From: an uncultured Amphritea sp.
Lineage (GTDB): Bacteria > Pseudomonadota > Gammaproteobacteria > Pseudomonadales > Balneatricaceae
Reading direction: 5' to 3'
DNA: 64,000 nt
NCBI RefSeq assembly: GCF_937127095.1
Contig: NZ_CAKZLP010000019.1
Span: 186,001 to 250,000, forward strand
Below the pieces are notes generated by a model that ran no database searches, was not told the origin of the DNA, and was given only the letters and a program-made list of their open reading frames with translations. Position numbers and translations under genes: made by a program. Positions 14,374-17,964 of this stretch are shown here, piece by piece (position 1 is the first letter of the stretch; each line of letters begins with the position of its first letter).

Positions 14374-15324
14374 TTGAAGATAGTTCTGGCACCGATGGAA
14401 GGGGTGGTTGATGCGCCCATGCGGGAGATCCTCACCCGTATTGGCGGGATCGATCAGTGCGTCACGGAGTTTGTCCGTGTCTCTGAACGGGTGTTGCCCG
14501 CCAAAGTCTTTCGCAAAATTTGTCCTGAGTTGTTTAACGACAGTTATACCAGCTCGGGTACCCCGGTGATCCTGCAACTGCTCGGCAGCGATCCGCAGGT
14601 TGTCGCGGGTAATGCCCGTAAGGCTGTGAGTATTGGTGCCAGAGGGATCGATCTCAACTTTGGTTGTCCGGCAAAAACGGTCAATAAAAGTAAAGGCGGT
14701 GCCATCCTGCTGAACGAGCCTGAACTGGTGCATAAGATAGTCTGGTGGGTACGCCAGGCGGTGCCTGACCATATTCCGGTGACAGCGAAAATGCGTTTAG
14801 GTTATCACGATAAGTCCCAGGCGCTTGAGAATGCGGCAGCGATTGCTGATGCCGGTGCCAATGGTCTGACGGTGCATGCCCGCACCAAAGAGGAAGGTTA
14901 CCGGCCTCCGGCCCATTGGGAGTGGATCGCCCGTATCAGAGAGCATGTCACTATACCGGTGACAGCTAACGGAGAGGTGTGGAACTGGCAGGACTACCAG
15001 CGCTGTCGTGAGGTGAGCGGCTGTGATGATGTGATGATTGGGCGTGGCTTAGTTGCGGCACCTGATCTGGGTTTACGGATTAAAGCACTGCAACGGGGCG
15101 ATGACCCGGACCACCTGAGCTGGCCTGAGATGCTGATTCTGCTACAACAGTTTCTCGAAATGGTGGAGCAACAGCTGGCACCTAAGTACGTCCACGGCCG
15201 GATCAAGCAGTGGTTGAAGATGATGTCACGTGAATACCCTGAAGCGATGCAGATGTTGCAACAGATGCGCACCCTGAAACAGGTCCCCGAAGTGCGGCAG
15301 TTTTTGCATCAGTATTCTTTATAA
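14374..15324 (+). CDS. dusC: tRNA-dihydrouridine synthase (DusC-like)
   Basis: APMEGVVDAPMREILTRIGGIDQCVTEFVRVS, GIDLNFGCPAKTVNKSKGGAILL, TVHARTKEEGYRPPAHWEWIARI; TTG start. Confidence 0.9.
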   Translation: MKIVLAPMEGVVDAPMREILTRIGGIDQCVTEFVRVSERVLPAKVFRKICPELFNDSYTSSGTPVILQLLGSDPQVVAGNARKAVSIGARGIDLNFGCPAKTVNKSKGGAILLNEPELVHKIVWWVRQAVPDHIPVTAKMRLGYHDKSQALENAAAIADAGANGLTVHARTKEEGYRPPAHWEWIARIREHVTIPVTANGEVWNWQDYQRCREVSGCDDVMIGRGLVAAPDLGLRIKALQRGDDPDHLSWPEMLILLQQFLEMVEQQLAPKYVHGRIKQWLKMMSREYPEAMQMLQQMRTLKQVPEVRQFLHQYSL

Positions 15325-15364: not shown

Positions 15365-15395
15365 TTGTCGAATCTCATTTAGCATTGAATATGCC

Positions 15396-15462
15396 GTGGC
15401 TAGATCGCGGCTTCGCCGCTGGCTAGTGGTTAGAACGTCGCTGCGCGACTGGCTAGAAAAAG
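15396..15462 (+). repeat. Left copy of a 67-bp inverted repeat made of small hairpins
   Basis: gtggctagatcGCGGCttcGCCGCtggctagtggttagaacGTCGCtgcGCGACtggctagaaaaag; reverse complement matches 16748-16814 with 2 mismatches. Confidence 0.93.
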
Positions 15463-15873
15463 ATTAAAAGCCGTAGCTCGTTGTTCGAACGTCACAAAAG
15501 GCGTGACTTGCTTGTCGCTCGAAAGAGCAAAGAAAGAATCGTTAGAAGTATCATCAGTCCAGCTCTACCAAAAACAGTACGTAATTTGTATGTATAAACA
15601 GTATATTTTGTATATCGCAGAGGTTATGCTCGTTGAATCGTTAGAGAAGGCTCGTTTTGCTGCTTGATGAGTTAGCAAAACGTCTGAAAAACAAAGGGAT
15701 AGGTTGAAACGCTGGCGGAATATTACGCCGGGCCCGGAATGCAACTGCGCATTCTCGTTTTTGTCTTAAGGGAGATCGCGGTGTCGGTTTTTTTCCTCTT
15801 TATTATCTGATAGTTACCTTTCCTTTAATAAATTCAGTTCGGCATGCATATGCGCCGGCGTAGTATTAAGATG

Positions 15874-16702
15874 TTATACACAAAGGAGAACCCATGCCTG
15901 ACCCAAAGATTGATTCCTTTCCATCCGAAGTAGCAGAAAAACTTCAATACTATGTTTACCGGTTAATTGATCCTAGGAACGGAGAAACCTTTTATATCGG
16001 GAAAGGTAAGGGCAATCGTGTATTTGCTCATGCTCGCGGTGATATTGAGACTGATTCCCTGTCTGAAAAAATGACCCGAATCAGATCAATTCACATAGCG
16101 GGATTTGATGTTGCTCATGTTATTCACAGGCATGGATTGTCTGAAAAATCAGCTTTCGAGGTTGAAGCCGCTTTAATAGATGCTTATCCGGGGATAACCA
16201 ATATTATGGATGGTCATGGGAATAGTGATTTTGGTGCTATGCATTCTTCCGAAATCATAAAGAAATATTCCGCAGAAACTGCAAAGTTTGAACACAAAGC
16301 TTTGCTTATCAGCGTTAATCGAAGCGCTCTGGATAGCTCACTTTATGAAGCCACTCGCTATGCTTGGCGTTTGAGCAAAAAGAAAGCGAATGAAGCAGAG
16401 GTTGTTTTAGCAACTGTACAAGGCTTAATTGTGGGCGCTTTCGTTGCGGATGAGTGGATAGAAGCAAATACAGCAAATTTTCCAGGAAGAGAGACGGTTG
16501 AAGGGCGCTACGGATTCAAAGGGCATGAAGCTCCAGTAGAGTTACAACAACAGTATGTAGGTAAGCGCACACCAGATGAATTTCGCAAAAAGGGTGCGTC
16601 TAATCCTATAAAGTATACATGGTAGGTTATTGTGTATAACAAGCAGCTACACACGGATATTTTGCTACGCTGGCGCTCCGCAAAATCCCGGTGAGCTGAG
16701 CG
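15874..16702 (+). mobile_element. Candidate lone integron gene cassette (no integrase in the window)
   Basis: GTTATAC at 15873-15879 is the exact reverse complement of GTATAAC at 16634-16640; ORF starts about 20 bp after the left boundary and stops 9 bp before an attC-like site. Confidence 0.75.
15894..16625 (+). CDS. GIY-YIG nuclease-superfamily protein (LEM-3/COG3680-like)
   Basis: YYVYRLIDPRNGETFYIGKGKGNRVFAHARGDIE motif; aaaggag RBS upstream. Confidence 0.85.
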   Translation: MPDPKIDSFPSEVAEKLQYYVYRLIDPRNGETFYIGKGKGNRVFAHARGDIETDSLSEKMTRIRSIHIAGFDVAHVIHRHGLSEKSAFEVEAALIDAYPGITNIMDGHGNSDFGAMHSSEIIKKYSAETAKFEHKALLISVNRSALDSSLYEATRYAWRLSKKKANEAEVVLATVQGLIVGAFVADEWIEANTANFPGRETVEGRYGFKGHEAPVELQQQYVGKRTPDEFRKKGASNPIKYTW

Positions 16703-16708
16703 TTAATG
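16634..16708 (+). other. attC-like integron recombination site
   Basis: GTATAACAAGCAGCTACACACGGATATTTTGCTACGCTGGCGCTCCGCAAAATCCCGGTGAGCTGAGCGTTAATG: R (TAAC/GTTA) and L (CAGCT/AGCTG) boxes with a spacer, then an imperfect stem (CAC/GTG, GGA..TTTTGC/GCAAAATCC) with unpaired bases on one arm. Confidence 0.8.
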
Positions 16709-16747
16709 CCCGCTTTGCATTATCGTGGCTACTGCTGTTTTTCTTTG

Positions 16748-16814
16748 CTTTTTCTAGCGAGTCGCGAAGCGACGTTCTAACCACTAGCCAGCGGCGAAGC
16801 CGCGATCTAGCCAC
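16748..16814 (-). repeat. Right copy of the 67-bp inverted repeat
   Basis: ctttttctagcgagtcgcgaagcgacgttctaaccactagccagcggcgaagccgcgatctagccac; 65/67 identity to reverse complement of 15396-15462. Confidence 0.93.
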
Positions 16815-16895
16815 TGCTTTCAAAGCGATCTAGCTACTGCTTTCGAAGCGATCTAGCCACTGCTTTCAAAGCGCTCTAACCACTGCTCTTAAAAC
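16804..16895. repeat. Four tandem 23-bp units, the last overlapping the amrS stop codon
   Basis: gatctagccactgctttcaaagc / gatctagctactgctttcgaagc / gatctagccactgctttcaaagc / gctctaaccactgctcttaaaac; the first three contain gcttt-c-aaagc-type hairpins. Confidence 0.9.
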
Positions 16896-17964
16896 GAACT
16901 ACCTGCCGCTGTGCTCCCCAGCTCCCCGGTGTCGCCTCAAACTTTCCTGCCAGCGGTGTTTTGCAGTGATTGCAGCAACCGTGTTTATCAAGATTCCATT
17001 CGCCCAGCTGGTACTGGCAGCGCTCAATCAATAACTGGCCGCAGTGGCTGCAGTACGTTGAGCCGCTGTTGGTTGCGGCAACATTGCCGGTATACACATG
17101 TTTCAGCCCGCAGCTGAGTGCGATGCTGCGCGCTTTTTCAAGGGTTTGTAGTGGTGTGCGCTGCCTGTCCTGCATTTTGTAGTCAGGATGGAAGGCGGTA
17201 AAGTGCAGAGGCACCCAGGGGCCCAGTTTTTCGTATATCCACTCACACATTGCTTGCAGTTCAGCGGCATCATCATTCTCACCGGGAATGATCAGGTTGG
17301 TAATCTCGACCCAGCAGTCGGTCTGATGTACCAGGTAGATGAGGGTGTCCAGTACCGGTTGCAGATGGCCGCCACAGAGTTTGTGATAGAAGCGTTCACT
17401 GAAGCCTTTCAGATCGATATTCGCCGCATCCATATAGCGGAAAAATTCAGCTCTGGGATCGGGCAGGATAAAGCCCGCCGAGACCGCGACAGAGTGGATG
17501 TTCTGTTCCCGGCAGGCCTGGGCGACGTCAACTGCATACTCCATAAAAATGACTGGGTCGTTGTAGGTGTAAGCGATTGAGCGGCAGCCTGTTTTGACGC
17601 AGGCATCGGCGAGCATCTGTGGGCTTGCCTGGCTGGCGAGGGTGTCCATCTGCCGGGATTTGCTCATATCCCAGTTCTGGCAAAACTTACAGCTCAGATT
17701 GCATCCCGCGGTGCCGAATGACAGCACCGGGGTGCCGGGCAGAAAGTGATTGAGTGGTTTTTTTTCAATCGGATCGATGCAGAAACCACTGGAGCGTCCG
17801 TAACTGTACAGTACAATTTCGCCCGCTTCGCACCCCCGGACATAACAGAGTCCGCGCTGGCCCTCTTGCAGTTTGCACTGGTGTGGACAAATATCACACT
17901 GGGTTCGCCCATCTTCAGAACGATGCCAGTAATGGGTTGGATGGTGGGGATTGACTGATTGCAT
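16876..17964 (-). CDS. amrS: AmmeMemoRadiSam system radical SAM enzyme
   Basis: CDICPHQCKLQEGQRGLCYVRG, CNLSCKFCQNWD radical-SAM CxxxCxxC, next to Memo and AMMECR1 genes. Confidence 0.93.
   Translation of the reverse strand: MQSVNPHHPTHYWHRSEDGRTQCDICPHQCKLQEGQRGLCYVRGCEAGEIVLYSYGRSSGFCIDPIEKKPLNHFLPGTPVLSFGTAGCNLSCKFCQNWDMSKSRQMDTLASQASPQMLADACVKTGCRSIAYTYNDPVIFMEYAVDVAQACREQNIHSVAVSAGFILPDPRAEFFRYMDAANIDLKGFSERFYHKLCGGHLQPVLDTLIYLVHQTDCWVEITNLIIPGENDDAAELQAMCEWIYEKLGPWVPLHFTAFHPDYKMQDRQRTPLQTLEKARSIALSCGLKHVYTGNVAATNSGSTYCSHCGQLLIERCQYQLGEWNLDKHGCCNHCKTPLAGKFEATPGSWGAQRQVVRFKSSG

Follow-up and report, generated by a model that had tools for sequence, protein, structure and literature searches.

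The DNA considered here is a stretch of 64,000 nucleotides (the window) from contig NZ_CAKZLP010000019.1 of an uncultured Amphritea sp., whose assembly is called G000 below. Between a dusC-like and an amrS-like gene it carries a mobile gene cassette of 828 bp (15875..16702, + strand), which contains an open reading frame (ORF; 15894..16625, + strand) for a predicted anti-phage protein and ends in a single attC site (16634..16708, + strand). Directly left of this cassette lies the left arm of an attI site (15582..15874, + strand), and the window contained no integron integrase gene (intI). It is probable from sequence comparisons that one PD-T4-3-type cassette was recombined into a dispersed, integrase-less attI located between dusC and amrS, the filling of which would have been performed by an integrase (IntI) acting in trans. 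The initial annotation had described a single-attC cassette with a defence-like nuclease as cargo, no intI in the window and core genes on both sides, all of which was borne out. It had also seen no attI and supposed an insertion away from any integron platform; these two points had to be abandoned, since the attI arm adjoins the cassette and the dusC site is a platform reused in three species, one of the attI copies without intI that are distributed over the genome.

Unit 15875-16702 is a genuine integron cassette, as decisively indicated by a copy found in unrelated flanks. The gammaproteobacterial metagenome-assembled genome OFTM396 (L029) displayed window positions 15873-16705 at 98.4% identity over 833 bp, with the same ends. 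Its flanks were unlike those of the window on both sides, divergence starting at the crossover points, and attC sites were encountered at and downstream of the end of the copy. Inspection of its left flank suggests that an intI-like frame begins there, and the cassette would accordingly occupy the first position of a complete integron in that genome. The same ORF was thus recovered as a cassette elsewhere, as the initial annotation had proposed to verify.

In the window, ORF and attC lie between two G^TTR crossovers and the start of the unit is complementary to R''. The left boundary GTTATAC (15874), whose complementarity to R'' GTATAAC (16634-16640) had been recognized before, is part of a perfect inverted match of 12 nt (15872-15883 / 16630-16641), and R' reads GTTAATG (16702-16708). 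The attC folded as a bottom-strand hairpin with a paired TAAC/GTTA box, only modestly better than shuffled sequences (z=-2.0, 7 of 200 shuffles being as good), and folding alone was therefore weak evidence. An attC scanner missed site 16634-16708 under its first settings and detected it, together with chance matches, under relaxed settings, which is why a covariance model (R1) was built instead. This model, of a type recommended initially, was trained on 19 attC sites from related arrays, the window's own site being left out. It attributed 26.8 bits (E=3.1e-4) to 16634-16708, the sole significant match in 64 kb, while the second-best match in the window had an E-value of 1.4. An Rfam search of the window gave no match.

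The cassette ORF (243 aa) agreed over nearly its full length with PADLOC model PDLC04031 for PD-T4-3 (E=2.9e-117, residues 5-243 on positions 2-254 of 256) and matched Pfam LEM-3_GIY-YIG (5.8e-11) as well as PDB structure 9u75 (1.1e-88). PD-T4-3 is a single-gene GIY-YIG defence of unknown mechanism that acts on some T-even-type phages (PMC12409345). Relatives of the ORF were spread over many phyla and also occurred on plasmids. The ORF was absent from the 17 congeners searched, and a search of viral contigs yielded no relative.

The arm preceding the cassette is about 290 bp long and was represented by 16 full-length copies in six genomes of the genus (family A), namely the window's copy and homologues at 15 other places. 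Four copies abutted a divergent intI and the 12 others were intI-less (satellites). In each of G001, G003, G007 and G009, one copy was positioned between the divergent intI and the first cassette, with conservation ceasing at the crossover. This position, together with the homology of 15582-15874 to the intI-linked copies, identifies it as attI, with its crossover after G15874. Conservation of the alignment extended as far as AATG^TTR and was lost beyond, different cassettes following; the dusC copy of G001 was an exception, as the bases after AATG differed. The far side of the arm displayed a LexA-box-like remnant, TTGTATGTATAAACAG (15586..15601, - strand), recognized in the alignment and presumably regulatory, at which the intI-linked copies of G001, G003 and G007 read CTGTATRTATATACAG. 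This box was present in intI-linked copies and was intact, degenerate or lost in satellites. The adjoining upstream segment (15463..15585, + strand) was common to intI-less attI copies at other loci, being encountered at G001 C10:239k and G007 1545k and partly at G003 1762k and G007 1962k. In congeners such as G009 and G007, a Shine-Dalgarno-like AAGGAG and an ATG opened a short frame running through attI toward the first cassette, which recalls the leader frames of class 1 attI; this frame terminated early in the window copy. Partial copies of the arm without the crossover end were present at G007 2626556, G009 C1:60987, G001 C13:308750, G012 C13:89939 and G003 1166298.

The left neighbour of the site is a core gene for a dusC-like tRNA dihydrouridine synthase (14374..15324, + strand; Pfam Dus, 5.6e-77), present in all 18 genus genomes searched, and the right neighbour an amrS-like radical SAM gene (16876..17964, - strand; Pfam Radical_SAM, 7.5e-16). 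At this junction, which the initial annotation had suggested comparing, seven congeners displayed a dusC-amrS gap of less than ~100 bp. The gap was occupied in G000, G001 and G009, where homology extended from dusC across ~490 bp and ended at window positions 15873-15876, the cassettes beyond being different in each of the three species. Two other platforms were each occupied in two species, one at the pabB side (G001, G003) and one beside a resistance-nodulation-division (RND) transporter gene (G007, G013). At all of these orthologous platforms, the first genes differed between species. Two, three, seven and four attC sites followed the family A satellites of G000 C11, G007 1545k, G007 1962k and G007 3117k, respectively; those of G000 C66, G003 1762k and G013 were followed by a cassette-like ORF with no or a weak attC. 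Just past the intI-less attI of G000 C66, L105 5193-6041 encodes a protein that, from its sequence, resembles tyrosine transposases associated with repetitive extragenic palindromic (REP) elements. A sigma-70 scan of the region yielded sites no more numerous than in shuffles.

Further attI lineages emanated from the left flanks of other intI-less arrays (B, C, D and a short match, E). Lineage B was the own attI of the integrase located on contig C60 of G000, and D that of the integrase of G001 C9 / G003 2028k, while no integrase is known for lineage C. A concatenated attI query uncovered many copies of these lineages in the genus and, outside it, further copies in genera g11 (G070 and G074) and g12 (G078 and G081) as well as partial ones in g7 (G042 and G046). 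The attC model detected sites downstream of several attI copies from other lineages or genera. Its genome-wide application covered G000, G003 and G007 only, with 150 candidates scored per genome. Sixty of the 64 matches lay within 8 kb downstream of an attI copy, on the same strand (~0.7 expected), and 40 of these 60 belonged to intI-less copies. G003 and G007 had supplied 14 of the 19 training sites of the model; in G000, which had contributed none, eight out of nine matches were downstream of attI copies. Most clusters of attC sites lacking integrases (CALINs) are therefore, in these genomes, arrays at dispersed attI satellites. The three genomes displayed ~9-16 attI copies each, those beside intI amounting to one of ~10, two of 16 and one of nine.

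The search for intI elsewhere in the genome, also advised initially, uncovered a single integron integrase in G000 (C60:203525-204466, L007 13511-14488), which is accompanied by an attI of lineage B. This IntI was 65-68% identical to the cognate (family A) integrase lineage, and its attI core AATTAAAATG^TTA resembles AGTATTAARATG^TTA of the window. The C60 integron displayed an attC at L007 8315-8386 and one large cassette-like block with a 961-aa helicase-like gene and a 639-aa gene. The family A integrase of G003 (C1:1514670-1515608) contained an in-frame TGA and, judging from this, may be inactive.

Capture of cassettes by IntI at attI is established. In the mechanism proposed here, an SOS-controlled IntI would be produced elsewhere in the cell and would recombine circular cassettes, through the bottom strand of attC, with satellite attI sites in trans, so that a single integrase would feed many chromosomal platforms. 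We infer such action in trans because the junctions are precise, intI is missing and the contents of common sites are species-specific. The data suggest that one integron enzyme is able to serve many docking sites in a group of gammaproteobacteria. We lean, with some confidence, towards an extension of this to a gammaproteobacterial family with distributed integrons. There, attI would have multiplied without intI into genome-wide platforms (~9-16 in each of the three genomes scanned), and one or two SOS-controlled integrases would supply all of them in trans; most cassettes would reside at satellites, and most CALINs would be satellite platforms rather than relics.

According to the usual view of CALINs, every intI-less attI would be a former complete integron from which intI was deleted. 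The satellites do retain the promoter side of intI, LexA-box relics included, and one of them (G003 844k, L214) displayed a weak intI-like fragment of 43 aa (E=0.004) ~100-210 bp before the attI match. Remnants were searched for upstream of the 12 family A satellites (3 kb at the window site) and none was found in 12 out of 12, the only part of the G007 query to match being the open frame that lies upstream of its intI. None was found either at 22 of 23 other satellites, positive controls being run; for five of these satellites, the upstream DNA available for the check was shorter than 700 bp. The left ends of the homology moreover clustered near the LexA box, and just one or two of the many attI copies per genome stood beside intI. 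Several satellites at different loci had a satellite-specific upstream sequence in common, which indicates that at least some of them multiplied without intI. Since G007 consists of one contig and G003 of two, assembly gaps do not account for the attI copies. General degradation is thus considered unlikely.

Several points weigh against the reading of a satellite attI filled in trans. The arm is assigned to attI from homology and position. The cognate intI of the window attI was not found in the G000 assembly, so that present activity at the site is unproven; the integrase that filled it may be the C60 IntI, or a cognate enzyme that was lost or not assembled. Since the very arrays analysed had provided both the attC model and some of the attI families, part of the 60 out of 64 coincidences is non-independent. 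Loss of intI may explain some satellite copies, as indicated by the fragment at G003 844k, and homologous recombination between strains could be partly behind the differences observed at orthologous sites.

In a tree of attI copies, the intI-linked and intI-less ones were not separated, a pattern that agrees with a repeated origin or with gene conversion. The dusC attI of G009 was a mosaic suggestive of gene conversion: its 3' part was 98% identical to its own intI-linked copy and 87% to the orthologous dusC copy, while its 5' part was 94% identical to the orthologous dusC copy and 74% to its own intI-linked copy.

It is less probable than integron degradation that attI and cassettes arrived as a unit between dusC and amrS, carried by a mobile element whose ends would be terminal inverted repeats. 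The unit is flanked by two 70-bp REP-like repeats (15393..15462, + strand, and 16748..16817, - strand) with arms 96% complementary to each other, the right copy being followed by 23-bp tandem units up to ~16893. Inverted copies also flanked the unit in G001 and G009, where the repeat stood directly past the last attC of the dusC locus, and related copies were encountered near other arrays. This repeat is dispersed, with dozens of matches in each genome that frequently occur singly and at a distance from arrays, for which reason its role as transposon end is unproven; several satellites lacked it on one side and no target duplication was established. Such repeats and 23-bp tandem units were dispersed across the genus and common beside cassette arrays. 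Insertion by IntI at an off-target, random secondary site (attG), an event reported in work cited in PMC12444791, would agree with one attC, no nearby intI and core genes on both sides. It is nonetheless very improbable, as a complete attI arm with ~290 bp of homology to intI-linked attI forms the left flank and one junction received different cassettes in three species.

Immediately past attC, the window displayed the conserved array-end sequence TTAATGYCCGCTTTG (16703..16722, + strand), and similar sequences followed the final attC in the dusC arrays of G001 and G009 as well as in several other arrays. A common GTTAATGYCCGCTTTGGGTC directly past an attC terminated arrays that belong to several attI lineages (window 16703-16722; L045 6532, L046 2871, L126 2245, L127 2588/4038/5090, L134 2379 and L234 2779); it may be a terminal element or derive from the right half of the ancestral site.

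The cassette itself is of an ordinary kind, and the novelty resides in its landing site. Integrons typically have one attI, beside the integrase; CALINs are considered probably degraded integrons, and IntegronFinder does not search for attI outside class 1 (PMC9024848). Proposed origins of CALINs comprise off-target insertion, intI loss and rearrangement, and dispersed attI copies are not among them (PMC8618304); CALINs of Xanthomonas occupy relatively conserved positions (PMC12444791). Literature searches among open-licence PMC papers did not retrieve any description of attI copies dispersed without intI. If the proposed organization is correct, one SOS-induced enzyme can load genes at numerous sites that differ from each other in their neighbours and in the expression that these allow. 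A considerable proportion of CALINs may then be functional, and tools that do not look for attI would mislabel satellite platforms. The dispersed copies offer a direct test of the specificity of IntI for attI and of attI multiplication.

Compared with known PD-T4-3 anti-phage proteins, the window's protein is alike in its near full-length agreement with the PADLOC model and PDB 9u75, and differs in its location within an integron cassette, its role in defence being a prediction. The site shares with complete chromosomal integrons the attI arm, the G^TTR crossover, the cassette with attC and, at the opposite end of the arm, the LexA-like box. It differs from them in that no intI adjoins its attI, and only a few of the attI copies in the scanned genomes lie beside intI. 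Like a CALIN, it is a cassette array without neighbouring intI. Unlike a CALIN, it has its own attI, and its single attC is below the minimum of two required by default in IntegronFinder 2 (PMC9024848), while other satellites displayed up to seven. With attG insertions (Loot et al. 2024, as cited in PMC12444791) it has in common a cassette distant from intI; attG recipients are neither attI nor attC, whereas the recipient in the window is homologous to attI, was used repeatedly in different species and is not an unrelated genomic site.
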